This document shows positions 19,559 to 31,185 of a stretch of DNA of 37,755 bases, piece after piece (within the stretch, counting starts at the first letter, position 1; the number at the start of each line of letters is the position of its first letter). The notes below the pieces were generated by a model. That model ran no database searches, was not told the DNA's origin, and was given only the letters and a program-made list of their open reading frames with translations. This DNA is from a virus. The translations under genes were made by a program, and so were the position numbers. Location of the stretch: IMG/VR virus record IMGVR_UViG_3300037963_003190, positions 1-37,755 of that record; one strand, given 5' to 3'.

Positions 19559-20241
19559 TTTTTTTCCATCAAAGATGTTAGCATAGACTTTTGTAATTTG
19601 CTGGTATGCTCTTGCAAAAAAAAATATCCTTTGTACGCTTCAGATATTGTAAGATTTTCAAAAGCCTTTGCCCTCATATCTATAATATCTTCATTATACT
19701 GCTCATCTTCTTTTTCTCTAAATAGTATTGCTGTTATCTTACTTAGGTAGTTCCATTTTCTATACTGCTTGGATTGAAACAAAGTTGATAAAGCCTGCGA
19801 TTCAGAGAAATGTTTATATGTAGCACCTCCTAACATCTTATCAATACCTCCGGCAGTCTTAACAGATTTAATTAAAACATACTTTTTTTTGTTTAAAGTA
19901 ATTGTATCGGAAGTACCTATATCATCCTGAGATGGCTCCCCTAAGAACTTAGCAACCAGGTTAAATATTTCAATAAGGCTTAACTCATCAGCTTTATTAA
20001 CACTTATTTCACACTCCAAATATTCTCTAGGTATATCGCTGAAAAGCTCTATCCAGTCAATATAAAAATCTAATAGCTTGGCTTCGCTTACTGGTTCATC
20101 TTGATCTGAATAAATGTAATTAGATAACCATTTAGGCATAGCATCAATATATTTCTGAGCTGCACCCATTTGTTTTATAGTGTTATCATTCCAGTTATTA
20201 CGTATTTGATATGGTTTATCGAGGATAGTTACTTTCAGCAT
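19444..20241 (-). CDS. Putative tail assembly chaperone (0-frame product)
   Basis: 265 aa as read without shifting. It begins MLKVTILDKPYQIRNNWND, the 'short beta-hairpin then SWxE/NWxD' start common in tail-chaperone-type proteins of this phage group. Helical segments follow (LLDFYIDWIELFSDI, LSLIEIFNLVAKFLGE), then SKITAILFREKEDEQYNED. After Met-Glu226-Lys227-Lys228 the frame becomes low-complexity (KAKLRTRKAKLLLKIFFGKA) while the -1 frame becomes protein-like. It starts at the last base of the 20241-20459 gene. The distance from the tape measure gene is unusual for a chaperone, so the name depends mainly on the frameshift architecture. Confidence 0.55.
   Translation of the reverse strand: MLKVTILDKPYQIRNNWNDNTIKQMGAAQKYIDAMPKWLSNYIYSDQDEPVSEAKLLDFYIDWIELFSDIPREYLECEISVNKADELSLIEIFNLVAKFLGEPSQDDIGTSDTITLNKKKYVLIKSVKTAGGIDKMLGGATYKHFSESQALSTLFQSKQYRKWNYLSKITAILFREKEDEQYNEDIIDMRAKAFENLTISEAYKGYFFLQEHTSKLQKSMLTSLMEKKAKLRTRKAKLLLKIFFGKAKLIRLLKRVFSIKKTKLL
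19558..19564 (-). promoter_or_regulatory. Slippery heptamer A AAA AAG (programmed -1 frameshift)
   Basis: The minus strand reads GAA AAA AAG GCA in the 0 frame, so the heptamer A AAA AAG has exactly the X XXY YYZ phase used for -1 slippage in bacteria. The next codon in the -1 frame is GGC and opens the 81-codon extension. I did not find an obvious strong stem just downstream or a Shine-Dalgarno stimulator upstream, and Bacteroidota ribosomes make little use of the latter. Confidence 0.6.
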
Positions 20242-20459
20242 TATTTAATGATGTTTCTGCTGATAAATATTAAATCTTGCTTTATCTTACCTAGCCTAGC
20301 ACAAGCAACAGTACTAAGCTGTTTATTACGCTCTTCTTTAATAGTGTTATCAATAAAGTCTGCTATCTCTATTAGCTTATCTTGTAAATCTGCTTTTACT
20401 GCTTTCTTAACAGTTCTCTTTGCTGCTGGCTTTTTAGCCTTTACTTCTTTCTTTTCCAT
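20241..20459 (-). CDS. Small Lys-rich protein (72 aa)
   Basis: 72 aa. The first 24 residues are histone-tail-like (EKKEVKAKKPAAKRTVKKAV), followed by a helical domain (LQDKLIEIADFIDNTIKEER) and ACARLGKIKQDLIFIS. The basic arm could bind nucleic acid. The gene overlaps the chaperone-like gene by one base. It is preceded by a TATATTTA element at 20464-20471, five bases from its ATG. Confidence 0.6.
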   Translation of the reverse strand: MEKKEVKAKKPAAKRTVKKAVKADLQDKLIEIADFIDNTIKEERNKQLSTVACARLGKIKQDLIFISRNIIK

Positions 20460-20463
20460 GTTA

Positions 20464-20471
20464 TAAATATA
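20464..20471 (-). promoter_or_regulatory. Candidate -7 element before 20459 gene
   Basis: The minus strand reads TTATTATATTTATAACATG. It has the same TTATTATATTT core as the stronger promoters at 21478, 34721 and 36490 but ends in A instead of G. It would start a message almost at the ATG. Confidence 0.35.
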
Positions 20472-20501
20472 ATAATTTTTTAAAAAGATTATAATTGCAA
20501 C

Positions 20502-21101
20502 CTACGGCAGTCGCTCAAGATGAATTATATTTAATATACTTCTAAAGTGTTTTGGTATGCCTTTGTATAAATCAATATTTGCCACTGCTTTTTCATACAT
20601 AATTTTTGCATCTTCTTCTATTTCAAATAATCCTAGATGAATATCATATTTATCAATTTTAATAGCTGACCTCCATTTGTTAGCTTTTTTACTCCAAGAA
20701 ACACCAACGTATTTACTTGTTTTATTTTCCAACTTACTTTTGAGGTCTTGCACAAATTTTCTTCTTGTAATAACTTTATCATTTTTAACAACCTCTTTTC
20801 TTTTACCTTTTGGTTCAAACCCGTTAAAATGAATTTGCTTTAAAGTATAAACATCATAAGTTTTTTTTATCTTATTTTTTACAAGAGAAACATCTCCATT
20901 TGTGTTTTTTAAAATCTTTTCCTTATAAACTCTTGGGCAATTATATCTACCTCCTATTACTATCTTTTCCAGAGCTTTTACCCTGTTTTTATTACTTATT
21001 TCATAAATACCTTCATACCCTTTTATAGGCTTCCATATTTCTTTACTTTCTAAATAAACAGTTTTACTATGCTGTGAAATGTTATTGATTTGTTTATTCA
21101 T
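20502..21101 (-). CDS. NUMOD4-AP2 protein lacking HNH residues
   Basis: 199 aa. Residues ~20-45 are a NUMOD4 motif (EIWKPIKGYEGIYEISNKNR). Residues ~128-175 are an AP2-type DNA-binding domain (SKYVGVSWSKKANKWRSAI, then HLGLFEIEEDAKIMYEKA). Between them, free-standing homing endonucleases carry an HNH segment of the type DHIDxNxxNN; here the corresponding stretch is KRKEVVKNDKVITRRKF, without the catalytic His and Asn pattern. It is therefore probably a nuclease-dead descendant, either decaying or reused as a DNA-binding protein. It lies just after the terminase region, a common target zone for phage homing genes. Confidence 0.7.
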   Translation of the reverse strand: MNKQINNISQHSKTVYLESKEIWKPIKGYEGIYEISNKNRVKALEKIVIGGRYNCPRVYKEKILKNTNGDVSLVKNKIKKTYDVYTLKQIHFNGFEPKGKRKEVVKNDKVITRRKFVQDLKSKLENKTSKYVGVSWSKKANKWRSAIKIDKYDIHLGLFEIEEDAKIMYEKAVANIDLYKGIPKHFRSILNIIHLERLP

Positions 21102-21107
21102 AATTTA

Positions 21108-21320
21108 TCATCTCTTAAAACAATCGCTCTTAGGCTTGATATTAATAAGCTGTTTAATATCCTCTTTACTCAACTGGCTGTAAATGCTCCTAAGCTCCTG
21201 AAAGTACCCTAACGGCTCTCTTTTATACCTACCCTCTGTTAATAATCCTATTCTCCTGTAATTAGATACCTCTATTCTAATAAGCTTATCTAATAAATAA
21301 TCTTTGCTGTTAATATTCAT
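21108..21320 (-). CDS. Unknown protein (70 aa)
   Basis: 70 aa, basic, helical: YLLDKLIRIEVSNYRRIGLL, then YFQELRSIYSQLSKEDIKQL. Starts four bases inside the end of the membrane-protein gene and ends six bases before the NUMOD4-AP2 gene. Not recognised. Confidence 0.55.
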   Translation of the reverse strand: MNINSKDYLLDKLIRIEVSNYRRIGLLTEGRYKREPLGYFQELRSIYSQLSKEDIKQLINIKPKSDCFKR

Positions 21321-21454
21321 TTCTTAAATAGATTTTTGATGAATAAATAAGCCTTCTCACAATAGAATAAACAGCTTGTAAATATTGATAATAATACTAG
21401 CAAAAACATAAAACTGTTTTCATGCTTAATCTTAAATCTTTTGTCTTTTTTCAT
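21317..21454 (-). CDS. Small single-pass membrane protein (45 aa)
   Basis: From the ATG at 21454 the product is MKKDKRFKIKHENSFMFLLV followed by LLSIFTSCLFY and a Lys-rich end. It has a basic N-terminus, one transmembrane helix and a basic tail. An upstream ATG at 21505 would lie within or before the promoter at 21478-21507, so the shorter form is preferred; it also has the ACAAACTATTTAACA leader. First gene of the unit after terL. Function unknown. Confidence 0.6.
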   Translation of the reverse strand: MKKDKRFKIKHENSFMFLLVLLSIFTSCLFYCEKAYLFIKNLFKK

Positions 21455-21477
21455 TGTTAAATAGTTTGTTTGAAAAT

Positions 21478-21505
21478 CAAATATAATAATAAATTTGTAA
21501 TACAA
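21478..21505 (-). promoter_or_regulatory. Promoter (TTG-N17-TATATTTG) after terL
   Basis: Minus strand: TTG at 21505-21503, a 17-base spacer, TATATTTG at 21485-21478. This is a full match to the Bacteroidota vegetative promoter pattern. The spacer region contains TTTGTATTACAAA (21506-21494), a near-palindrome also found at the 36490 promoter and possibly an operator. Predicted transcripts begin near 21471 and would cover the genes from 21454 downwards. Confidence 0.7.
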
Positions 21506-21514
21506 AAGAAAAAG

Positions 21515-22852
21515 TTATGCAACTGCTCTAACTGACTTTTTAGCAAGCTCAAAATACTCCCTCATCATAAAACAATCTGCATAATCGGGAGAACGTCCTA
21601 TGCTCTCTTTAATCTTATCCTTTGCAATTATACCTAACTTGTTTTCATCGTTATCTGGATTAGCCTGTTTGATGCTTGCTAACTCTTCTTTTAACTCTTG
21701 CCAGCATTTATTAGCAACATTAGGAGAAATGTAAATGCCATAATCATTAACCCTCTCAGCACTCTTAAAATAACATTGAGCTTTTAAGTTTTTATAGTTT
21801 TCATTCTTAAACTTGTTAACTATTGCTTTAGCATTATTGGTAAAACCCTTAGAACCTTTTAACACATCAACAGCACCTCCACCAACTCCATCCTGATCAA
21901 GTACTATATTACTACGGGCAACATTGTATTTATTTGCCATTTGTCTTATAGTTAATACAACTTCATCAATTCCTGATTTATCTATTATATGAATATCAGA
22001 CAAGACAAACCCCTGCCAAACCATGATAACGGTTTTATCAGCTCCAAACCTTGCAACATCACAAGTAATAAAAGCTTTTCCTTCAGGCTGTATAAATTCA
22101 TTAGTTAACAAATTATCTAAACCATCATCTGAGTAAATCCTGTTAGGGTCATTATCATAATCCCAGTTACCTAGTAAAAGCCTTTCCTTTTTAGATTGGT
22201 CTTTAATAGATTTAAGGTTAATGATATACTCTTTATCAATGTATGGGTTATCTGTTACGTATGCTTCAATAAATGCCTGAGTAATGGGTAGATTGTTTGC
22301 TCTGAATGGCTGTATAAACTCTTCATACATCCAGTTCCTTTTTGGGTTACAGGTTATAAGTAACTTAGGCAGTATATTGTATTCAGTATTGAACCATCTA
22401 CCTATCCTGGTCCTGAGTACATCATAAGCACCGAAGTTTATCTCTCCACCCTCTTCAATCCAACCTCCTGTATATTCTAATGAACCGAAACGCTCATACA
22501 TTGGATCAGATGGCTTATACTGTAAATCAAGTAAGTCTATTCTTGAGCCGTTAGGAAATTCAATATAGTTGTCCTGTCCTTGATACCTCCAGAAGTCATG
22601 AGGTAAATTATGATGCTGTCTTACTTTTAATAGTGTTTGATAAGTTGAAGCTCTTAGCCTTTTTAACTCTTCTCTGCCAATAAACCATTTAGTCTTAGGA
22701 TACCTTAAACAGTTTACTAATAACCATTCACATCCTAGCCATGACTTACCACCTCCAGCAGCACCACCGTAAAGAGTTTCCTTAGTTATGCTATCATTTA
22801 GTTTATTGTATGCTTCATGCTGTTTTTTAGATGGATTTATATTAATCTCCAT
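21515..22852 (-). CDS. terL: Terminase large subunit
   Basis: 445 aa. It is the ATP-driven packaging motor and headful/cos nuclease. Walker A is YGGAAGGGKSWLG (residues 28-40), and the adenine-binding region precedes it (KKQHEAYNKL). A Walker B-like GGWIEEGGEI and coupling motif LLITCNPKRNW follow. The C-terminal RNase H-like nuclease has the acidic residues FITCDVARFGADKT and IVLDQDGVGGGAVDVLKG, and a late SPDYADCFMM. Length and order fit Terminase_3/6-type large subunits. It overlaps the small-subunit gene by 11 bases. The stop is about 10 bases before a promoter region. Confidence 0.95.
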   Translation of the reverse strand: MEININPSKKQHEAYNKLNDSITKETLYGGAAGGGKSWLGCEWLLVNCLRYPKTKWFIGREELKRLRASTYQTLLKVRQHHNLPHDFWRYQGQDNYIEFPNGSRIDLLDLQYKPSDPMYERFGSLEYTGGWIEEGGEINFGAYDVLRTRIGRWFNTEYNILPKLLITCNPKRNWMYEEFIQPFRANNLPITQAFIEAYVTDNPYIDKEYIINLKSIKDQSKKERLLLGNWDYDNDPNRIYSDDGLDNLLTNEFIQPEGKAFITCDVARFGADKTVIMVWQGFVLSDIHIIDKSGIDEVVLTIRQMANKYNVARSNIVLDQDGVGGGAVDVLKGSKGFTNNAKAIVNKFKNENYKNLKAQCYFKSAERVNDYGIYISPNVANKCWQELKEELASIKQANPDNDENKLGIIAKDKIKESIGRSPDYADCFMMREYFELAKKSVRAVA

Positions 22853-23252
22853 TAGGTAGGTTATAGTTTATTTTAATCTCTCCTGTATGAGTATTTTCGT
22901 TTTTGTTTTCATTAATATTTTTAAGGTTCCACTCTGAAAATTTACGCTCTATAATCCACGCCCATCTCTGCCATGCTCTATCATCATTAGAGAACTTTTT
23001 AAACAGGTTTTCTTTTTGATTCCTTAGTGCTTTTTTTATAAGACGACAAAACTCTGCACCTATTTCACCATTTTCATCGAAATTATTAGACTTCCATCTT
23101 TCAAATGTTCTCTGACTAATCCTATCTTTTTTATCTAGGTTTTCATTAATCTCATCTACCAATTCCTCATCAGTTAACAGCATTAAACCATCTCTAAAAA
23201 GTACATCTTTAGCAACTTCAATAAATCTATCTATCTTACTCGGTCTTGCCAT
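22842..23252 (-). CDS. Terminase small subunit-like protein
   Basis: 136 aa. It would recognise the packaging site on phage DNA. The N-terminal half has a helix-turn-helix-like arrangement (RPSKIDRFIEVAKDVLFRDG, DEELVDEINENLDKKDRIS, QRTFERWK). The C-terminal half is helical, then polar (GEIKINYNLPNGD), as in small terminases. Direct overlap with terL by 11 bases is the main support. Its own start overlaps the end of the 76-aa gene by 22 bases. Confidence 0.7.
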   Translation of the reverse strand: MARPSKIDRFIEVAKDVLFRDGLMLLTDEELVDEINENLDKKDRISQRTFERWKSNNFDENGEIGAEFCRLIKKALRNQKENLFKKFSNDDRAWQRWAWIIERKFSEWNLKNINENKNENTHTGEIKINYNLPNGD

Positions 23253-23461
23253 CTATCTGTTATATCATAGTCTGGATTTTTTAACCAGACACTATCTTTT
23301 ATTTTTTTTTTAACCTTGATTGATTTTAGGAAGTATCTAGTTATTCCGTCATGAGGTATTTTCTTTGCCATTATAAAGATACTATTGTTTTCCAGTACCT
23401 CATATTCATGCCCTTTGTGATGAAATATATCTTTAGTATGTAAGGTTCCTACTTCAACCAT
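23231..23461 (-). CDS. Unknown protein (76 aa) before terminase
   Basis: 76 aa, beta-rich: DIFHHKGHEYEVLENNSIFIM and RYFLKSIKVKKKIKD, ending with a basic tail DRWQDRVR. It resembles no family I can name. A TATATTAG element lies just upstream of the ATG. Overlaps the small-terminase gene by 22 bases. Confidence 0.55.
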   Translation of the reverse strand: MVEVGTLHTKDIFHHKGHEYEVLENNSIFIMAKKIPHDGITRYFLKSIKVKKKIKDSVWLKNPDYDITDRWQDRVR

Positions 23462-23485
23462 TAAACCTAATATAATAAAATTTAA

Positions 23486-23770
23486 TTATTTTTCAATCTC
23501 TTGGACTATTAGGATTAATTCATTAAGCAGCTTCTGCTGAGCTTCTTCATAGTTTTGACAGTATGAAGATTCAGTAGAAGTGTAAATTGGTTTATGGAAA
23601 GTACCTCTAGCATATACTTTATAATTGTATTGTTTCCCTGTTTTCTCAATCCATGATGTATAACCCCACCTTACTCTAAACCAGTTAAACACTTTGCAAT
23701 ATGTTATATTATCATCATACCCTAGTTGCCTTACTAAGGATAGCTCTTGGGAGGTTATTACATCATTCAT
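23486..23770 (-). CDS. Unknown phage protein (94 aa)
   Basis: 94 aa. TSQELSLVRQLGYDDNITYC leads into WFRVRWGYTSWIEKTGKQYN and YEEAQQKLLNELILIVQEIE. Small proteins with 'FNWFRxKYGxxSWI' patterns recur in Bacteroidota phages near replication or packaging genes; their role is unknown. It starts eight bases after the porin stop, showing that the cargo genes are embedded in the phage operon. Confidence 0.6.
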   Translation of the reverse strand: MNDVITSQELSLVRQLGYDDNITYCKVFNWFRVRWGYTSWIEKTGKQYNYKVYARGTFHKPIYTSTESSYCQNYEEAQQKLLNELILIVQEIEK

Positions 23771-23778
23771 GATTTAAT

Positions 23779-24771
23779 TTAATTAAAAGAATAAACTGCT
23801 GCTAGTACTATACTTGATAAATTATCTTTTTGCTCAAATACTTGCTCACTAGCTTTATCTAATCTGTATTCTAATTTTAGATTTAAATTTTCAACCGAAT
23901 AATCTAAAGTAGTTGTAAAGTTTATAACATTTGCACCTGGAGCAATAGCACCTATACCACTATTAATCTCTGCAAAATACTCACTTCTTAAACCGGCTGT
24001 TAATTTACCTAAATCATACTGAGGATATAAAGCAAGCCCATAAAAACCATCTTTATCAGTTTTGTTGTAAGTAGAATTTACTCCGAGATAAAACTTTTTA
24101 CTTAGGTCATAACCTGCTGTTAAATCTAGTTGAAAAGTAGGCTCTAAGCTTGCATCCTGTTTACCATACAAAGCATTTAAGTAAGTACCTTTATAACCTA
24201 ATTGAACTCCTAAAGTATTGAAGTTTGTAGGGTTAAAATCAGTAGCATCAGTTGCATTTAAAACCGCTAACATACCTGTAAGGTTTTCAGATAGGTTAAA
24301 ATCTGCTTTTAATCCTGAATGAGAAAAAGGACCATAACTAAACATATAAGAAGTTGAGTAATTAAAATTACCACTAGGGCTTATAACCTCATAACCTAGA
24401 AAAGTATTAAAATTACCCATTGTTAAAGTAAGGTTATCACTAACATCCCAGTAAGCATAAAGCTGATTAATAATATTAGAACTTCCTGACGATAAGAAAA
24501 CAGCGTCTTCCCCTCTAGGTCCAAATACTAAATCAGCAACAAAACCTGTATTTTTAGTATCATAAAAGCCAATAAGATTAAACATTCCTAAACTAAACCC
24601 GTTACCATTTGCAAATGATGTAGCTGGAGTTATTTCTGTATTTGATGTGCTTATGTTTCTACGGTAATAAATATCAGCACTTCCTTCTAAGGAAAGATTT
24701 GATTTTAAGCTGTCTTGAGCTGTAATAATTAAAGCACTTAGTGCTAATAAAATTGTAAATATATTTTTCAT
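23779..24771 (-). CDS. Outer-membrane beta-barrel porin (BBP2/OmpL-like), cargo
   Basis: 330 aa. Residues 1-18 (MKNIFTILLALSALIITA) form a Sec signal peptide. The mature part is an all-beta barrel: NLSLEGSADIYYRRN, GNGFSLGMFNLIGFYDTKN, GFVADLVFGPRGEDAVF, QLYAYWDVSDNLTLTMGNFN, TFLGYEVISPSGNFNYSTSY and FSHSGLKADFNLSENLTGML match the putative beta-barrel porin-2 family. Alternating strands continue to a C-terminal VLAAVYSFN. It is expected in the outer membrane, letting ammonium or other small N-compounds into the periplasm for Amt. It follows amt after a hairpin. Porins beside amt-glnK occur in Bacteroidota chromosomes, so capture of a whole locus is likely; the solute is inferred from context. 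Confidence 0.75.
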   Translation of the reverse strand: MKNIFTILLALSALIITAQDSLKSNLSLEGSADIYYRRNISTSNTEITPATSFANGNGFSLGMFNLIGFYDTKNTGFVADLVFGPRGEDAVFLSSGSSNIINQLYAYWDVSDNLTLTMGNFNTFLGYEVISPSGNFNYSTSYMFSYGPFSHSGLKADFNLSENLTGMLAVLNATDATDFNPTNFNTLGVQLGYKGTYLNALYGKQDASLEPTFQLDLTAGYDLSKKFYLGVNSTYNKTDKDGFYGLALYPQYDLGKLTAGLRSEYFAEINSGIGAIAPGANVINFTTTLDYSVENLNLKLEYRLDKASEQVFEQKDNLSSIVLAAVYSFN

Positions 24772-24787
24772 TTTTTTTGAAATTAAA

Positions 24788-24808
24788 AGAGGGGCTTTTA
24801 ACCCCTCT
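24788..24808 (-). terminator. Hairpin between amt and porin genes
   Basis: Minus strand: AGAGGGG, loop TTAAAAG, CCCCTCT, then TTTTAATTTC. It has a seven-pair G/C-rich stem with a moderate T run, 7 bases after the amt stop. It could terminate part of the transcripts, making porin less abundant than Amt, or protect the glnK-amt message 3' end. No separate promoter before the porin gene is evident. Confidence 0.65.
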
Positions 24809-24814
24809 ATATTA

Positions 24815-26044
24815 TTAATGTTGATTTAATCGGAAATCTGGATAGGCACTCATTCCATGCTCTGCATTATCTAAGCCCTCAACCTCTTCTCTTTTTGATA
24901 CTCTTAACCCTATTGTTTTTTTAATTGTAAATAGAATTAAGAAAGCACTAATTAAACAAAAGGCTCCAATGATACCCACTCCGGTTAATTGAATAAGAAA
25001 CTGACTAGCACTAGCCATACTACCAAAGATACCTACTGCAAGTGTTCCCCAGATACCACAACCTAAATGTACTGCTATGGCTCCAACAGGATCATCTAGT
25101 TTTAGCTTATCCAATAATGATACTGTAAACACCACCACAATACCACCAATAATACCAATTAAAACAGATTGGTTAGGGCTCATTAAATCTGCTCCAGCGG
25201 TAATAGCAACTAAACCTCCTAAGATACCATTTAAAAACATTGTTAAATCAAATGTTTTGTCTTTAATAAAAGAAGTAACAGCCGCACCAATACCACCAGC
25301 CGCAGCAGCTAAACAAGTAGTAACAAGAGTTAAAGAGGTCAATGCAGGGTCAGCACTTAATACGCTGCCTCCATTGAAACCAAACCAACCTAACCAAAGT
25401 ATTAATACTCCAGCAGTAGCAAAGGGTATGTTATGACCTAAGATGGGTATTGACTTACCGTTTTTGAATTTACCAACTCTAGCACCTAACAACCATACTG
25501 CAATAAGAGCAGCCCATCCACCAACTGAATGAACTAATGTAGAACCAGCGAAGTCATAGAAACCTAAGTTATCTAAAAAACCTCCACCCCATTTCCATGA
25601 TCCTACTATCGGATAAACTAATCCTACGTATATTAAACTGAAAATCATAAAGCTACTAAGCTTAATCCTTTCAGCTACTGCTCCTGATACAATAGTTGCA
25701 GCGGTTGCAGCAAACATTCCCTGAAAAAGAAAATCAGTCCACCATGTATAACCACCATCAGCATATTCAGCAGTCATACCGTTTACAGGTGCATCTATTC
25801 CAAAACCAGCGAATTTAATAAATCCAATACTACCATCTTCAAAGCCCGGATACATAAGATTAAAACCACCTATGTAATAAACTAATAAGCCCATACAAAT
25901 AATGAAGATGTTTTTAAACAAAATATTAATTGTATTCTTTTGTCTGGTTAATCCAATCTCTAAGAAAGAAAAACCTAAATGCATGAAAAACACTAAACCA
26001 GTGCAGACCATCATCCATACATTGTTAACTGTTAACATTTCCAT
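24815..26044 (-). CDS. amt: Ammonium transporter (Amt/MEP/Rh family), cargo
   Basis: 409 aa, eleven predicted hydrophobic segments, full family length. The Amt signature DFAGSTLVHSVGGWAAL (164-180) holds Asp164 and the first pore His172. The second pore His326 lies in VGAIAVHLGCGIWG. The aromatic gate region QGMFAATAATIVSGAVAERI (109-127) is intact. The cytoplasmic tail ends with GLDNAEHGMSAYP (390-402), the conserved segment needed for regulation by P-II. All features of an active channel are present, with no break. It starts eight bases after the P-II gene, as in bacterial glnK-amtB operons. Unlike most bacterial Amts it has no obvious N-terminal signal peptide. Confidence 0.95.
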   Translation of the reverse strand: MEMLTVNNVWMMVCTGLVFFMHLGFSFLEIGLTRQKNTINILFKNIFIICMGLLVYYIGGFNLMYPGFEDGSIGFIKFAGFGIDAPVNGMTAEYADGGYTWWTDFLFQGMFAATAATIVSGAVAERIKLSSFMIFSLIYVGLVYPIVGSWKWGGGFLDNLGFYDFAGSTLVHSVGGWAALIAVWLLGARVGKFKNGKSIPILGHNIPFATAGVLILWLGWFGFNGGSVLSADPALTSLTLVTTCLAAAAGGIGAAVTSFIKDKTFDLTMFLNGILGGLVAITAGADLMSPNQSVLIGIIGGIVVVFTVSLLDKLKLDDPVGAIAVHLGCGIWGTLAVGIFGSMASASQFLIQLTGVGIIGAFCLISAFLILFTIKKTIGLRVSKREEVEGLDNAEHGMSAYPDFRLNQH

Positions 26045-26051
26045 CTCTCTT

Positions 26052-26390
26052 TTAATTTAAAGTTTGATTTCCACGTTCTCCAGTTCTAATCCTGTAAGCT
26101 TCTTCAATATTGGAAACAAAAATCTTACCATCTCCAATATTACCTGTTTTACCAGATTGCAGAATAGCTTTTATTGTTCTATCTAAAAACTCATCAGATA
26201 CAACAATAGATAAGTACCTCCTTTGTATATCAGAAGTACTATATTCAATTCCTCGATAGCGTCTATCGAGTTTCTCATTACCAACTCCTGTACAATCCCA
26301 GTAACTAAAAAAAGTTACCTTAACTGCCAATAGAGCTGATTTCACATCATCGAATTGAGATTTTCGAATGATGGCATCCACTTTTTTCAT
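26052..26390 (-). CDS. glnK: P-II nitrogen regulatory protein (GlnK-like), cargo
   Basis: 112 aa, full length. The fold starts MKKVDAIIRKSQFDDVKSAL. The T-loop (about 36-55) has GNEKLDRRYRGIEY, in which Tyr50 aligns with the uridylylated Tyr51 of E. coli proteins. The second P-II signature TGNIGDGKIFV is at 82-92, and RIRTGERG (100-107) supplies nucleotide-binding Arg residues. The usual Gln39 ligand is Glu here (G37-N-E39-K), which I believe is common in Bacteroidota but could not check. It would sense ATP/ADP and 2-oxoglutarate and block or open Amt. It has its own -7 element upstream (26421-26428) and leads the cassette. Confidence 0.93.
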   Translation of the reverse strand: MKKVDAIIRKSQFDDVKSALLAVKVTFFSYWDCTGVGNEKLDRRYRGIEYSTSDIQRRYLSIVVSDEFLDRTIKAILQSGKTGNIGDGKIFVSNIEEAYRIRTGERGNQTLN

Positions 26391-26420
26391 AAGCGATTTA
26401 TTTAAGTTAAAAATTGATTA

Positions 26421-26428
26421 CAAATATA
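26421..26428 (-). promoter_or_regulatory. -7 element TATATTTG before glnK
   Basis: An exact TAnnTTTG on the minus strand in the 39-base gap between the MazG-like and P-II genes, followed by TAATCAATTTTTAACTTAAATAA and the ATG at 26390. There is no TTG at the normal -33 distance, so basal activity may be low or depend on an activator. It offers the cassette its own transcription start. Confidence 0.5.
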
Positions 26429-26429
26429 A

Positions 26430-26708
26430 TTATTTTCCCTGTTTTGCTCTGTACTCGTTTATTCTGATCTTGTTTTTTATTTCCTGCTCAATGTCAATAT
26501 TGTAATGCTTTGCCATGTTTAAACATACCAGAATAACATCAGCTAACTCTTCAGGTAAATTACTCCATTCTTTAGATATTAAAGCTTCTTTTTTTAGCTC
26601 TTCTACCTCTTCTTGAAGCTTATCTAAAAACTCAAAAAGCGTAGTAGTAGGAGTTATAAAACCCCTATCTACTATGCTCTGGTAATTGGCACTTATTATA
26701 TCTTGCAT
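26430..26708 (-). CDS. MazG-like nucleotide pyrophosphohydrolase
   Basis: 92 aa, a single all-alpha MazG/dUTPase-like NTP-PPase domain. LFEFLDKLQEEVEELKKEAL gives the metal-binding ExxE pattern (about residues 31-38), and NLPEELADVILVCLNMAKHY gives the second ExxD helix. Such phage enzymes hydrolyse NTPs/dNTPs and have been linked to nucleotide recycling and the starvation response. It starts on the stop of the helicase-methyltransferase gene (TAATG) and directly precedes the nitrogen cassette. The start at the ATG 26708 is supported by that overlap. Confidence 0.75.
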   Translation of the reverse strand: MQDIISANYQSIVDRGFITPTTTLFEFLDKLQEEVEELKKEALISKEWSNLPEELADVILVCLNMAKHYNIDIEQEIKNKIRINEYRAKQGK

Positions 26709-28936
26709 TAGAATAATGTTAGTTGATTTTTTGAATGTATTGCTTTATTTACATTTTTTATAGCAGTTTCAAAATATTTATCTTTTAACTCTATTCCAAT
26801 TCCATATCTATTTAATTTTACTGATTCAAATATTTCACTTCCAATTCCTAAAAAGGGAGTAAAAACAGTTTCATGAGGATTTGACCACATTTGAACGCAT
26901 CTTTTTATTACAGAAAGTTGAAGTGGAGCAATATGTTTTTCATCACCTAAGTCAGTTCCTTGTTTATTGTTTAAAACGTCAGTTCTTTTGATATCCATCC
27001 AAGATTGTACTTTGTAAAGTTTTTCAATCTCTTCTAAGTGTTTTATATCTGATTTTTCAACATTCCAAACAGGACTTGCCCAAGATTGCCAAGTATCTAA
27101 AGGGAAATTATTTTGGTTTTTATTGTTTATTGGTTTCCAATCTTCTTCATTTCCATCCCACTTACGAAAAACTGTAACATATTCAGGAAGTCCTACTCCA
27201 GTATAACTTGAGTCTTTTCTTAATTGCTTATAAAGTAGTCTTTGTGTTTTAGTTCTTTGCATTTCTAACACGGGGTCAGTCCATATATTTATTTTTGAAT
27301 GATACTTAAAACCTACATCTTCAACTGATTTATGATGTTCTCCAGTAAAATCATACAGTCCAGTGTAACCACTAGAATTTTTATAAACAGCTAAATCTTT
27401 TGTGTGACAACACATTAACCTACCCGGCTTTAATATCCTGTATAAATCTTTTAATAAGAATTGATATTGTTTAAAAAAATCATCGTGACTGTCATTATTA
27501 CCCATATCGTGTATATAATTCGAATAAGTAAATAATGAACTAAACGGAGGGCTGAAAATAATTAAATCTACTGAATTATCTGGTATTCTTTTTATTTCCT
27601 GACATGAGTCACCTTTCATTAGCCAATAGTCGTTATTCTTTACTTCTTTAAAAGTATAAGAATTTAATAGTCCAAATGATTCACCATTAATGTATTTATT
27701 CATTTCGTTTTGCATTTCTTCAAATTGTTTTTGTTTTTTATTTATAATTTTTATTACATTTTCCATAGTATCAGTTGTAATCAAATAGATGTTTACATTG
27801 TTTTTTTGTCCGAATCTGTAAGACCGCCTTACTGCTTGGTAAAGTCCTTCAAAACTAAAATCTAAACTTGCAAATACCTGATTGTAACAATTTTGAAAAT
27901 TCATACCAAATTGAGCTATTTTCTTTTTTGTGACTAAAACTCTAAATTCATTATTTGCAAATCCTAGTAATCTAGATTCTTTAATTTCAGGTTTGTCAGC
28001 ACCGTTAACAGAAACTGCATCAGGTATTAATTGTTTTATTTTTTTTTCTTCTTCATTTTGGTTAACCCATACAATAAATTGACTACTAGAGTTATTAACT
28101 ATCTTAGCGACTTCTTCTAATCTTTCAGCTAATGTTAATTTCAATTCTTTGTTAAAAGATGTTGCATTAGTGTTTCCTTCATTAAATAACCTTCCATTAT
28201 TTCTTACTTTTGTTTTTATGCTTTTTTCAAAGTAATTAATCTTTGGTAAAACGTATTTAGTTCCATCAAAACCTAAATCCTTTGGATTAGTTAACATAAC
28301 TGCCCATGAGCTAATCCATCCGTAAAAATCTTTTTTAGCGTGCCCTTTTAAACGATAGTTATTCATACCTTCATCCCTAACAAACCACTTAGCTCTCATA
28401 TCCTGAGCATCTAATACATTTAAAAACTCACTGTGATTTCCAATTTCATTCAAATCATTAGGCGAAGGCGTCGCAGTACACGCTAATTTATAAGCTGTTT
28501 TATCAAACTTATCAATTATTAGCTTTTTATATTTTCCTGTGAAGTTTTTTAATATACTTGATTCATCTAATACTACACCTGAATAAATTGAAATATCAAT
28601 ATTGTCTAATTGTTCATAATTCCAAATATCAAAACTATCTAAGTTTATATTAAATTTGATTGCCTCTTGTTTTGTTTGACCTTTGACCGCTAAAGGTGCA
28701 AGTATTAAAACCTTTTTATTTGTTTTTTTGTAAACTTCTTCAGCCCAGCTTAATTGCATTAGTGTTTTGCCCAAACCACAATCAGCAAATATTGCAAATC
28801 TACCATTTTGTAATGCTCTAATAACAATATGTTTTTGAAAATCGAACAAATTAGTATTTAAATTACTTTCATTAATACAAAAACCACTTTTAACGTGCCT
28901 TTTCTCTTTTGTTTTTAAGAACTCTTGATAATCCAT
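26708..28936 (-). CDS. SNF2-type helicase fused to DNA methyltransferase
   Basis: 742 aa in two parts. Residues ~30-400 are an SF2 helicase/translocase: Walker A ADCGLGKT (51-58), motif II DESS (124-127), motif III-like TATPSPND (154-161), and the C-terminal lobe with FEGLYQAVRRSYRFGQ (motif VI, 362-376). Residues ~435-742 are an N4/N6-type amino-methyltransferase of permuted order: SPPF (462-465) as motif IV and FTPFLGIGSE with FLGIG (695-699) as AdoMet motif I. The SPP form is commoner in N4-cytosine enzymes. No nuclease domain is visible, so self-modification against host restriction, or methylation during replication, is more likely than a complete restriction system. Confidence 0.88.
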   Translation of the reverse strand: MDYQEFLKTKEKRHVKSGFCINESNLNTNLFDFQKHIVIRALQNGRFAIFADCGLGKTLMQLSWAEEVYKKTNKKVLILAPLAVKGQTKQEAIKFNINLDSFDIWNYEQLDNIDISIYSGVVLDESSILKNFTGKYKKLIIDKFDKTAYKLACTATPSPNDLNEIGNHSEFLNVLDAQDMRAKWFVRDEGMNNYRLKGHAKKDFYGWISSWAVMLTNPKDLGFDGTKYVLPKINYFEKSIKTKVRNNGRLFNEGNTNATSFNKELKLTLAERLEEVAKIVNNSSSQFIVWVNQNEEEKKIKQLIPDAVSVNGADKPEIKESRLLGFANNEFRVLVTKKKIAQFGMNFQNCYNQVFASLDFSFEGLYQAVRRSYRFGQKNNVNIYLITTDTMENVIKIINKKQKQFEEMQNEMNKYINGESFGLLNSYTFKEVKNNDYWLMKGDSCQEIKRIPDNSVDLIIFSPPFSSLFTYSNYIHDMGNNDSHDDFFKQYQFLLKDLYRILKPGRLMCCHTKDLAVYKNSSGYTGLYDFTGEHHKSVEDVGFKYHSKINIWTDPVLEMQRTKTQRLLYKQLRKDSSYTGVGLPEYVTVFRKWDGNEEDWKPINNKNQNNFPLDTWQSWASPVWNVEKSDIKHLEEIEKLYKVQSWMDIKRTDVLNNKQGTDLGDEKHIAPLQLSVIKRCVQMWSNPHETVFTPFLGIGSEIFESVKLNRYGIGIELKDKYFETAIKNVNKAIHSKNQLTLF

Positions 28937-28939
28937 AGC

Positions 28940-29143
28940 TTATAAATAATATTGTTTTACTCGTACAAATTCACCATACCTATTAGGTACTTCTAACCAT
29001 TCATCTTTTACTTTATTACCTTCTTTTCTAAGGTCGCATATTCTCGATGCTAGGCGGTATATCCCTAGCTCCTGCCATGCTTTTAAAGGATTAATTTTGT
29101 TACCTTGCTCTAGATAGGTGAGCAACCTTTGTTTTTGTGTCAT
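28940..29143 (-). CDS. Small helix-turn-helix protein (HTH_39-like)
   Basis: 67 aa. TQKQRLLTYLEQGNKINPLK then AWQELGIYRLASRICDLRKE followed by a beta wing (VKDEWLEVPNRYGEFVRVKQYYL) is the typical winged-helix module found singly in phages. It ends three bases before the helicase-methyltransferase start. It could regulate the operon or act with the methyltransferase. A TATCATTG element 25-30 bases upstream of the ATG is a weak candidate promoter. Confidence 0.7.
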   Translation of the reverse strand: MTQKQRLLTYLEQGNKINPLKAWQELGIYRLASRICDLRKEGNKVKDEWLEVPNRYGEFVRVKQYYL

Positions 29144-29195
29144 AATTGTTTAGTTTGTTGTTTATTTTCACAATGATAATAATAAAATTTTAATA

Positions 29196-29552
29196 CTAAA
29201 ACTTTAAAGATTGATTTTCTAATTTTATTTTATAATTTTCTTCTCTAAGCTTTAAATTTTCCTGTTTTAAAAGCGTGTTTTCATTTTTTAATTTTGTAAC
29301 CTCATCATCAACAGTATCAATATAAAACTCTAATTCTGCGACCGAAAATATGGCGGCTTCTGTTAATGTTGCCAGTGGATTATCAGTCATTTTTTTATCC
29401 TCAAAACTTTTGAATAATCTTCTTAACGTAATATCAGCCGTTTCTAGAGCTTGTTTTGCCTCGAGGTATACATTACCCCCAAAAATATTTTTCGTGTCCT
29501 TAAACATCACATAAATAGGCAATAAATCGATTTGTGGCTTTTCACTTAGCAT
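29196..29552 (-). CDS. Coiled-coil (leucine-zipper) protein (118 aa)
   Basis: From the ATG at 29552 (MLSEKPQIDLLPIYVMF) 118 aa. An earlier ATG at 29594 would overlap the helicase gene by 32 bases, and the chosen start has the AACAACAAACT leader. The C-terminal 45 residues form a clear coiled coil with repeated KLKNENTLLKQENLKLREEN. The N-terminal part has KNIFGGNVYLEAKQALETAD. Dimerisation is likely; function unknown. Placed after the replicative helicase. Confidence 0.6.
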   Translation of the reverse strand: MLSEKPQIDLLPIYVMFKDTKNIFGGNVYLEAKQALETADITLRRLFKSFEDKKMTDNPLATLTEAAIFSVAELEFYIDTVDDEVTKLKNENTLLKQENLKLREENYKIKLENQSLKF

Positions 29553-29562
29553 AGTTTGTTGT

Positions 29563-30543
29563 TTAAAATGGTAAATCGTCATCAATATCATCATTTCCGT
29601 AGCTCATTCTACTCATGTTTTGATGCTCTTTTGTTTTTATGAGTTCTAATTGTTCGGATGGTTTGTCGTATGTATGCTCTAATGGGTTTTCGTTATCGAT
29701 TATGTAAGCACAATGATTAACCCATCTTAACTCTATTGGTTTATCTCTGGGAGTAACACAACCTCCAGTAATAGTTTCTTTTACTTTCCTAACGTGCAGC
29801 TCTCCAATATTCCACCTTTCCGGGTGCTGTGTCATTCTGTGAATAGTAAAAAAATCATCTGCTCTATTAGCAAACTTTTGACCACCTTCTGTATCTGCTT
29901 TTTCAGGAGCTGCTAAATGTCCTTCGTAAATATGGTCTTTTGGATATCTGTTTCTGGCTGATTGAGTTACTAGATGAGCATTTACAAATACCGTAGTATT
30001 ATTCTGTTCTGCAAATATTCTAAGGTTAGCACAAATGTCATAATCCTCTTGATGTTTGTTACTGGTTTCAGTCATTAAGCTGTTGAAAGGATCAACTAAC
30101 AATCCATCATGATGCTTTTTACTTGCTATGTCCAAAATATCATAAGCGGAGTATCTTTTATCGTTCGGTATAAATTCAAAATAATCAGATATTTCATTTA
30201 GGGTATGCTGAAAACCTCTATCATCAATCGTATAATCTTTGTCTAATCTTCTACCAGTCCAAAAGTTAAAAATTTTAAATACCTGACTTCTAACTGTATT
30301 TTCTGAAGAGTAGATAAGATGTTTTTTACCATGCAGCTTACTCATGCAAACAAAGTACCATAACAAAACATCTGTTTTTCCTACGTTATCATGCCCGTTA
30401 ACCATATTAAACTGCCCTTGCTTCCATTTAATGTGGTTATCAAAAGCTTCTACTCCTATTCCTAAACCTTGCTCAATCTTTCCTAATCGTATTTCATCTA
30501 AGCCCTGAAGCTCATGAAAAGGTTTTGTGTAATAATTTTCCAT
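29563..30543 (-). CDS. RecA-fold (DnaB/RepA-like) helicase with SSB-type tip
   Basis: 326 aa. Single RecA-like ATPase domain of AAA_25/RepA type: Walker A GHDNVGKT (50-57) and Walker B DGLLVDPFNSL; later TTVFVNAHLVTQSARNRYP (motif with His, sensor-like) and EGGQKFANRADDFFTIHRM. There is no N-terminal DnaB domain, so it probably acts as a stand-alone replicative helicase or annealing-related ATPase. The last residues, GNDDIDDDLPF, copy the acidic-hydrophobic C-terminal tip of bacterial SSB, a docking site for repair and replication proteins. It starts one base after the initiation-protein stop. Confidence 0.8.
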   Translation of the reverse strand: MENYYTKPFHELQGLDEIRLGKIEQGLGIGVEAFDNHIKWKQGQFNMVNGHDNVGKTDVLLWYFVCMSKLHGKKHLIYSSENTVRSQVFKIFNFWTGRRLDKDYTIDDRGFQHTLNEISDYFEFIPNDKRYSAYDILDIASKKHHDGLLVDPFNSLMTETSNKHQEDYDICANLRIFAEQNNTTVFVNAHLVTQSARNRYPKDHIYEGHLAAPEKADTEGGQKFANRADDFFTIHRMTQHPERWNIGELHVRKVKETITGGCVTPRDKPIELRWVNHCAYIIDNENPLEHTYDKPSEQLELIKTKEHQNMSRMSYGNDDIDDDLPF

Positions 30544-31185
30544 CTATTTACTCCCTTCTATCCAAGGAGCTGCTGTGTTATTGTTGTTTGTTTCTTTTGG
30601 TTTGCTGGTTGAGTTACACCAATTCCAGAACCAAGATATAATATTTCCGTATTGTTTATTCCTAAACTCTTCTGAATCTTTTTTAATTTCTAAAAATCTT
30701 TTTAAGTGTTTTATAAGCTCTTCTTTGTTCGTTTTATAAATTATCTCATTTTGTTGATAACTTGTTTCAGAAAACCTTTTCAAAACAGAATTTATTTTTT
30801 TATTAATTATATATATATCATTATCATTAACAGTATCAGTATCAGGTTTTTTTGGGTTTTTTGGGTTTCCAAAATAACCCACTGGGTTTTTTGGGTTATT
30901 AGATAAACCCACTGGGTTTTCTGGGTTTTTCTTAGGTCTTCCACCTAGAGCACCATTGGCTCTATTGCGTTCCTGTATTTTCTCATATTTCTTTAAATCT
31001 CTCTTCAATTGCTGTTTTATAGGATTAAAAGCAGCATTCAACATCCAGTCATCTGATTGAGGATTTTTATCATTAACATATTCGAAAATGTGTTTAATTA
31101 ATTTTCCAGCAAATTCATCAGGAAGTTCGGAAAAGGTTTCCAAGTAATCACAATAGAGTATAAAACTCTTTTTATCTTTTGCCAT
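30544..31185 (-). CDS. Replication initiation-like protein (DUF6291/DnaD-like)
   Basis: 213 aa. The N-terminal ~75 residues (KKSFILYCDYLETFSELPDE, FAGKLIKHIFEYVNDKNPQS, FNPIKQQLKRDLKKYEKIQE) match the DUF6291-type region found in phage replication proteins. NRANGALGGRPKK follows, then three 10-residue repeats NPxNPxxxxx (NPENPVGLSN, NPKNPVGYFG, NPKNPKKPDT), then a helical C-terminal domain ending IISWFWNWC. The repeats at DNA level (30841-30930) suggest an origin inside the gene, as in lambda O. It overlaps the upstream gene by 14 bases and is followed by the helicase gene. Confidence 0.65.
   Translation of the reverse strand: MAKDKKSFILYCDYLETFSELPDEFAGKLIKHIFEYVNDKNPQSDDWMLNAAFNPIKQQLKRDLKKYEKIQERNRANGALGGRPKKNPENPVGLSNNPKNPVGYFGNPKNPKKPDTDTVNDNDIYIINKKINSVLKRFSETSYQQNEIIYKTNKEELIKHLKRFLEIKKDSEEFRNKQYGNIISWFWNWCNSTSKPKETNNNNTAAPWIEGSK
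30781..30832. other. AT-rich stretch beside repeats (candidate unwinding element)
   Basis: A run that includes ttatttttttattaatta and tatatatatatca, with hardly any G or C, directly beside the 30-bp repeats and inside the initiation-protein gene. In lambda-type origins an AT-rich region flanks the iterons on the side towards the end of the initiator gene; the same order is seen here. Confidence 0.45.
30841..30930. repeat. Three 30-bp direct repeats (candidate iterons / ori)
   Basis: The plus strand holds TGGGTT at 30853, 30862, 30883, 30892, 30913 and 30922: three pairs, 9 bases apart within each pair, with a 30-base period. The two right-hand units also carry AACCCACTGGGTT, an inverted repeat (30877-30889 and 30907-30919). 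In the protein they encode six Asn-Pro pairs, every one as AAC CCA although the genome is AT-rich. Either the DNA sequence itself is under selection (iteron origin) or the repeat duplicated recently. Confidence 0.6.

Follow-up and report, generated by a model that had tools for sequence, protein, structure and literature searches.

Introduction

Viruses carrying genes for nitrogen uptake have been described before, and the published case most similar to the one treated here is that of Gazitua et al. (2020; PMC8115048), in which two viral contigs of the so-called PII-1 group carry glnK, amtB and ompL in this order and are traced to Flavobacteriales, the only order for which the passages describing them report an association of PII, Amt and OmpL. 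An earlier report of P-II in ocean viruses is that of Roux et al. (2016), which PMC8115048 credits with the PII-1 group. Two roles were proposed in PMC8115048, namely an increased ammonium uptake during infection under the control of uridylylation, or a competition with the PII of the host. Here, we analyze a virus record of the IMG/VR database (IMGVR_UViG_3300037963_003190), a stretch of 37,755 b of the linear class, hereafter the window, in which three consecutive genes, hereafter the cassette, encode a P-II nitrogen regulator, an Amt ammonium channel and a predicted outer-membrane porin.

Other known systems share only a part of these features. In the viral PII-4 group, as described in PMC8115048, P-II also adjoins Amt in a phage, but the glnK-amtB pair is of gammaproteobacterial origin, has no extra genes and belongs to a T4-like phage. 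The Ostreococcus virus (Monier et al., 2017, via PMC9083009) carries a viral ammonium transporter that is reported to be transcribed in infection and to transport ammonium; however, it is a eukaryotic virus, and the relevant passage of PMC9083009 names the transporter alone. The cellular counterpart is the glnK-amt-porin operon of Flavobacteriaceae (Maribacter, Robiginitalea, Flagellimonas and others), which shares with the phage copies the gene order, the protein families and, in about half of the cases, the position of the –7 promoter box, whereas the phage copies have shorter spacers, a variable tip of the P-II T-loop and no operator of the CCCCTA-N6-TAGGGG type.

When the window is set beside the published description of the PII-1 contigs, the likeness is extensive. 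The three genes and their order are the same; the viral P-II was reported to match Flavobacteriales at 71–72%, and here the values are 61–75% to the Flavobacteriaceae rows (best 80 of 591 host loci); Y51 is kept, a promoter precedes glnK, a terminator-like hairpin follows amtB and phage hallmark genes are present. In fact, glnK is followed by amtB in the window, the BBP2 porin lies directly downstream of amtB after a gap of 43 nt, and the P-II is nearest to Flavobacteriaceae among the best 80 of 591 loci. The original prediction on this DNA, made from its letters alone, knew of no phage with all three genes, and this was wrong because glnK-amtB-ompL viral contigs had been published in PMC8115048; the three-gene phage cassette is therefore already in the literature. 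The observation itself is real, and the interpretation given with the prediction is sound in outline. The published contigs are two, from one cluster, and their spread among unrelated lineages, borders, T-loop divergence and host operator are not treated in the passages that describe them. New here are the occurrence of the cassette as one bordered block in unrelated phages, the pattern of change in the T-loop, the likely lack of control by GlnD and the lack in the phages of an operator found in the hosts. We consider it probable that a flavobacterial uptake operon has been captured and passed among unrelated marine Bacteroidota phages as a promoter-bearing block, uncoupled from the nitrogen control of the host.

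One block in different phages

The window P-II was used as reference for the identities in a P-II profile scan of IMG/VR, which retrieved 28 loci on 27 contigs, 76–99% identical to it, some of the contigs being near-copies. Amt follows P-II in 26 of them, the other two contigs (L097, L098) ending within 45 nt. Of these 26, 24 continue with the porin, whereas L025 and L029 end inside Amt; in one locus, L026, the frames of P-II and Amt are broken. The search for amt near glnK and a BBP2 porin that had been suggested with the original prediction thus yields 24 IMG/VR loci with all three genes. The trees of the three proteins, also suggested at that time, were built, as were the T-loop and palindrome counts given below, with the best 80 of 591 host loci (L146–L224); L011, L021 and L026 (cut or broken genes) and host rows with coverage <80%, incomplete or with internal stops were excluded from the trees. 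In each tree the 24 phage rows form a single clade apart from the host rows: 24 of 104 rows for Amt (Shimodaira-Hasegawa-like approximate likelihood ratio test, SH-aLRT, 100, quick search), 24 of 88 for P-II (100/100) and 24 of 61 for the porin (100/100). The exact order P-II, Amt, porin is found in 18 of the 80 host loci, in Flavobacteriaceae, and the best host Amt is 80% identical to that of the window. A single capture by phages of the flavobacterial operon is the probable origin. The 24 rows represent fewer independent phages, since L013 equals L014 over 16,195 b, L015/L016 and L019/L020 are identical in P-II and porin, and L009/L010 in the porin.

The phages carrying this single clade of genes are otherwise different. 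In an all-against-all comparison of open reading frames (ORFs), only three to five window ORFs, three of them the cassette, are matched in L012, L015, L017, L020 and L028. L020 has a terminase large subunit (TerL) of phrog_6681 and a portal of phrog_6547, vs. phrog_2 and phrog_12, respectively, in the window; L012 has a tail-fibre attachment RNA ligase (phrog_562), L015 has a head-closure protein (phrog_679) together with a terminase (636-aa frame), and in L005 and L013 replication and lysis genes alone were seen. Terminase queries matched 4 of 18 (phrog_2) and 2 of 16 (PF03237) cassette records searched, partly a limit of the queries, as L020 has phrog_6681; the L017 record gave no terminase match, the terminase being the only hallmark searched there. 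When window positions 20001–31000 were compared by blastn with 12 loci of such phages, the shared block started at 26392–26433 and ended at 23762–23783, or at 23482–23499 when a small ORF downstream of the porin was included; beyond it, the matches listed contain one more, of 42 nt with L013. Because genes of a single clade sit with common borders in lineages sharing little else, the promoter, P-II, Amt and porin would have moved between phages as one unit, and since its capture the operon has probably spread among several groups of marine Bacteroidota phages that are not related to each other.

The small ORF (94 aa) lies 3′ of the porin in many cassette loci and 5′ of P-II in L015/L016, has no tblastn match in the best 80 of 591 host loci, and has a counterpart in the cassette-free L121, where this counterpart starts 109 nt after MazG. 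A tRNA-Tyr gene (L017, 1876–1954) lies just 5′ of the cassette in one of the 14 loci scanned and in none of the other 13, and a tRNA is not a general insertion mark. L013 and L023 are on one contig of 128,733 b (IMGVR_UViG_3300030110_003801), which carries two cassettes, 78.6% alike, each with a primase-like gene upstream. Apart from the cassettes, blastn gave no match between the stretches compared; the assembly has either fused the genomes of two phages here or recovered a phage with a genuine double cassette.

Viral Amt genes outside this group were also found. The 52 standalone loci (L027, L030–L080; 43–59% identity) among the best 80 of 99 viral Amt matches, weaker ones being uncounted, have neither P-II nor porin on the compared stretch and were set aside as other viral or host Amt. 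In GenBank, deposits labeled as phages (e.g. MT835472, MT835517, MT836927 and MT836963, human faecal ‘Bacteriophage sp.’, and CAKLQH020000023) give distant matches for P-II and Amt (30–46% and 30–40%), with P-II adjoining Amt in several, and may be other captures or bacterial DNA.

All three genes are under purifying selection, with low median ratios of nonsynonymous to synonymous substitution (dN/dS; pairs with dS 0.05–1.5): P-II has 0.115 (112 pairs), Amt has 0.079 (129 pairs) and the porin has 0.129 (162 pairs). The three frames are open in 24 rows of diverged phages. Host-like, intact and under purifying selection on a viral genome, the cassette has the genomic features expected of an auxiliary metabolic gene.

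The cassette and its phage genome

The ORF coordinates and the full-length Pfam matches agree on three intact genes on the minus strand (Table 1), and the location of the MazG-like gene and of the terminase pair (21515–23252) places them between the two, as had been predicted.

Table 1. Features of the cassette and of its surroundings (window positions).
Feature	Position	Strand	Basis or remark
Block common to phages of otherwise different gene content	23779..26428	-	blastn, window 20001-31000 vs. 12 phage loci
P-II (GlnK-type) nitrogen regulator, 112 aa	26052..26390	-	PF00543, 74.2 bits, profile 1-102 of 102
T-loop (residues 36-54 of P-II), including Tyr45-Arg46; its tip, residues 40-44, spans 26259-26273	26229..26285	-	alignment
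Amt ammonium channel, 409 aa	24815..26044	-	PF00909 (Ammonium_transp), 383.8 bits, profile 1-399 of 399
Putative outer-membrane porin of 330 aa, BBP2/OmpL-like, modeled with 16 strands after a signal helix	23779..24771	-	PF07642, 200.9 bits, profile 2-339 of 339
Putative Bacteroidota-type –7 promoter box TATATTTG (TANNTTTG), then conserved leader to P-II start	26421..26428	-	match to TANNTTTG
GC-rich hairpin between amt and porin, terminator-like or transcript-stabilizing	24788..24808	-	locus comparison, amt-porin gap
Small ORF, 94 aa, no assigned function, frequent cassette companion	23486..23770	-	locus comparison
MazG-like	26430..26708		28.8 bits vs. cut-off 27
Terminase small subunit	22842..23252		hallmark beside cassette
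Terminase large subunit (TerL, phrog_2)	21515..22852		hallmark beside cassette

The P-II is, by its full-length profile and the kept residues G86, D87, G88, K89, R100 and R102, invariant across 25 aligned rows and which we take to be the nucleotide site, a member of PF00543. Likewise, the full-length profile and the motifs DFAGSxxVH (24 of 24 phage copies) and VHLGCGIWG (21 of 24), presumably containing the pore Asp and the twin-His residues, assign the Amt to PF00909. At residue 328 of the window Amt (25061–25063), all 24 phage proteins have Gly; Ile prevails among the 53 host rows, with Gly in a single one. His326, two residues before, is presumably the second pore His.

The sequence of the porin had no match among solved structures at E up to 1. 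Its structural model, with a signal helix and 16 strands (predicted local distance difference test, pLDDT, 74.6; predicted template modeling score, pTM, 0.70), resembles PorB, OmpF and similar barrels with Z about 20, and on this model the protein is a BBP2/OmpL-like 16-stranded barrel with a signal peptide. Such a general OmpF/PorB-like barrel would also fit a role at the cell surface, in which porin and Amt, for instance, hide a phage receptor or admit other nutrients and the supply of ammonium is secondary; however, the same porin is found inside the ammonium operon of many hosts, and P-II, Amt and porin stay together in all phage contigs long enough to show it, so that we regard this role as improbable.

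The rest of the window is that of a genuine tailed phage with intact P-II, Amt and BBP2 porin genes: besides the terminase, it encodes a portal (phrog_12), a head-maturation protease, a tape measure and an endolysin. In GenBank phages, the window terminase matched 25 records, the Amt 21 and the P-II 14, all at <60% identity, with best values of 46.7, 45.9 and 40.2%, respectively. Since the ten best-listed of the 25 terminase records include phages of Bacteroides, Flavobacterium (11b), Polaribacter and Cellulophaga, at 41–47%, the host of the window phage is probably a member of Bacteroidota. Gene identities and nearest terminases therefore bear out the proposed host-derived ammonium-uptake operon in a probable Bacteroidota phage.

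Host-like genes on a viral contig, and a locus such as L026 with broken frames, might suggest an assembly chimera of phage and host DNA. Nevertheless, the order MazG, P-II, Amt, porin, small ORFs, terminase is repeated in L001, L003, L004, L006 and L007, and relatives with the same terminase (85–97%) exist in cassette-free form (L106, L107, L109, L110, L121); the recurring junctions and these relatives make a chimera or host contamination very unlikely and, if one adds that the phage genes form phage-only groups and that the best host Amt among the loci compared is only 80% identical, the chimera hardly deserves consideration. The helicase-methyltransferase gene beside the cassette (26708–28936) is 96–99% alike in L001 and L121 and 34–35% in L004 and L006, in which MazG and terminase are >90% alike to the window despite this divergence, a case of allele swapping.

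Putative promoter, spacers and a candidate host operator

The box TANNTTTG, which we take to be the Bacteroidota –7 consensus, starts 38 nt before the P-II ATG in the window and 32–42 nt before it in 19 of the 23 other phage loci; it is found within 80 nt of the start in 25 of 51 hosts. The leader between the box and P-II is similar in otherwise unrelated phages. Furthermore, the spacers of the phage cassettes are shortened, with medians of 7 nt between P-II and Amt (23 loci) vs. 25 in hosts (51), and of 41 nt between Amt and porin (26 loci) vs. 114 in hosts (25), gaps >400 nt (among them that of L026) and the window being excluded. The hairpin between amt and porin recurs, in altered sequence, wherever the other phage loci compared leave a gap of ≥38 nt (17 loci), and it is absent in the four with a gap of 3–11 nt (L017, L018, L020, L028); all five host loci compared (L146, L151, L160, L166, L169) have a different, larger hairpin there. 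A scan for sigma-70 promoters was uninformative (16 found vs. 18.8 expected), and Rfam gave no hit at gathering scores in window positions 23000–27000.

These features bear on the idea that the cassette is a hitchhiker or a silent cargo without benefit to the phage. Some close relatives, the cassette-free ones named above, do without it; on the other hand, the low dN/dS of all three genes, the frames kept open in 24 diverged rows, the shortened spacers, the kept –7 box and the hairpin present in most lineages argue against a silent cargo, to which we give very little credit.

In the hosts, the operon has a further element. Palindromes of the CCCCTA-N6-TAGGGG type, scored with the loose pattern CCCY-N4-11-RGGG, lie 5′ of the first gene (P-II or porin) in 33 of 51 host operons, L154 and L167 being excluded because these loci start too close to the operon. 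Over 12,750 bp, 46 sites were counted as distinct (64 if overlapping matches are included), a density of 3.6 per kb compared with 0.085 per kb in the remainder of these loci. All 13 pairs of neighboring palindromes have a spacing of 52–54 bp. In the Amt tree 21 host rows group with the phages; 20 of them were scorable, and 16 have the palindrome. Within 250 nt 5′ of P-II, none of the 23 phage loci has the loose pattern, nor has the window.

A strict 18-nt form of the pattern was searched in 120 genomes of the family of G021: there are 27 sites in 25 genomes, the other 95 having none, and the reversed control pattern gave 0. In a pilot on eight genomes, the 18-nt pattern had seven sites in five genomes and its control none, while a 17-nt pattern had a single site in each of two genomes and the reversed control of that pattern a single site in a third. 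Of the 25 strict sites examined as loci (L230, L237–L260), 21 adjoin nitrogen genes, nine of them P-II, Amt or porin, nine glutamine synthetase and three alanine dehydrogenase, the weaker glutamine synthetase and Amt matches being supported by Pfam; the remaining four adjoin a sigma-factor-like fragment (L239), an ORF of no family (L243), no listed ORF (L244) and a methyltransferase (L259). To count the P-II sites is circular, because the pattern was discovered there; no such circularity affects those beside glutamine synthetase and alanine dehydrogenase. Paired CCCCTA-N6-TAGGGG palindromes 52–54 bp apart are thus a candidate flavobacterial nitrogen operator, of which no description appeared among the papers listed in our literature search. 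The phages have either lost it or inherited an operon lacking it.

The P-II T-loop and its control

The T-loop of P-II, whose tip contacts partners, evolves differently in phages and hosts. For the 24 phage rows, the Amt tree gives 48 changes over the 19 columns of the loop and 98 over the other 93, a per-site ratio of 2.40; for the 51 flavobacterial rows the ratio is 0.52. In pairs with a divergence of 10–20% in the rest of the protein, the T-loop differs on average by 0.317 between phage proteins (74 pairs) and by 0.094 between host proteins (168 pairs), the distances being based on 16 different phage sequences and 50 different host sequences. The tip is the most variable part of P-II in the phages, and the hosts keep the T-loop nearly constant. 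In both, Tyr45-Arg46 is unchanged (24/24 phage and 51/51 host rows); the pair aligns to positions 46–47 of solved P-II proteins, and Arg47 of GlnK is, we assume, the residue that plugs Amt. Tyr50 of the window corresponds to position 51 (Y51); of the 24 phage rows, 21 have retained it, L012 has F there, and L015 and L016 have H. The T-loop does not support positive selection, as its dN/dS is below 1: 0.21–0.23 for residues 36–54 and 0.64–0.75 for residues 40–44, with 0.07–0.10 for the rest. Our reading of the pattern is that, the Amt plug aside, the contacts of the loop have become less constrained.

The fast change of the partner-contacting tip could also be seen if the phage P-II were mainly a decoy, joining or displacing the host P-II so that the Amt of both host and phage remains open, or disturbing other host P-II targets. 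A competition with the host PII is among the proposals in PMC8115048. However, the pair assigned by homology to Amt plugging is invariant in phages and hosts, and Amt stands next to P-II in 26 of the 28 loci, the other two contigs ending first, which fits a gate for its own channel; a decoy is in our opinion unlikely, although less so than the surface role or the silent cargo.

The published control by uridylylation finds little room in the presumed hosts. The GlnD model TIGR01693 exceeded its cut-off in none of 33 Bacteroidota genomes (31 flavobacterial, 2 Algoriphagus), with weak partial matches in seven, and in the 14 controls it had matches in five, E. coli among them, two being over the cut-off. 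If the hosts resemble these genomes, such a control is therefore unlikely, and a direct control by ATP, ADP and 2-oxoglutarate would be the simpler reading.

A probable captured operon and its proposed uncoupling from host nitrogen control

Because most related host operons have the palindromic operator and the phages do not, and because the T-loop tip has drifted, we propose that both transcription and P-II contacts have been uncoupled from the nitrogen control of the host, the contact with Amt alone being kept. During infection, extra Amt channels in the inner membrane and a general channel in the outer membrane, the porin, would most likely be made; at low 2-oxoglutarate the phage P-II would close its own Amt by insertion of Tyr45-Arg46, and under nitrogen shortage it would release it. 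The capture of a flavobacterial operon, its passage among unrelated phages and its uncoupling form the reading that we favor. Its fuller form is tentative and may well not hold in every part: a self-contained block of 2.65 kb with its own promoter, passed among at least four phage lineages and freed from host nitrogen control both at the promoter and at the protein, the T-loop keeping the Amt-plugging contact alone.

Several points weigh against this reading. The trees are compatible with one capture, and further captures from unsampled hosts fit them as well. The –7 box has no match to TANNTTTG in 4 of 23 phage loci. The palindrome is missing in marine rows derived from metagenome-assembled or single-cell genomes (L152, L189, L192, L205, L224; according to their titles, L152 is a metagenome bin and L205 a single-cell or bin genome), so that the donor may already have lacked it. 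The difference in T-loop ratio between phages and hosts has a Fisher p of 2e-11 when changes are taken as independent; T-loop DNA blocks are common to L004, L005 and L015 across lineages, and recombination of alleles shared in this way inflates the counts of changes. Moreover, a T-loop dN/dS below 1 fits relaxed constraint as well as adaptation, and the porin model supports an outer-membrane channel, not selectivity for ammonium. Finally, the sequences themselves show the identity of the genes, their common origin, one block in different phages, purifying selection, the lack of the operator and the T-loop pattern; expression, transport, gating and benefit to the phage are what we infer from the genes, as is nitrogen limitation of the host.

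The cassette can now be treated as a single mobile module of phages with known borders. Its phage variants are natural material for separating the parts of P-II needed for the gating of Amt from those serving the rest of host nitrogen control, and the host palindrome, a candidate operator, gives direct access to the way in which flavobacteria regulate nitrogen genes.

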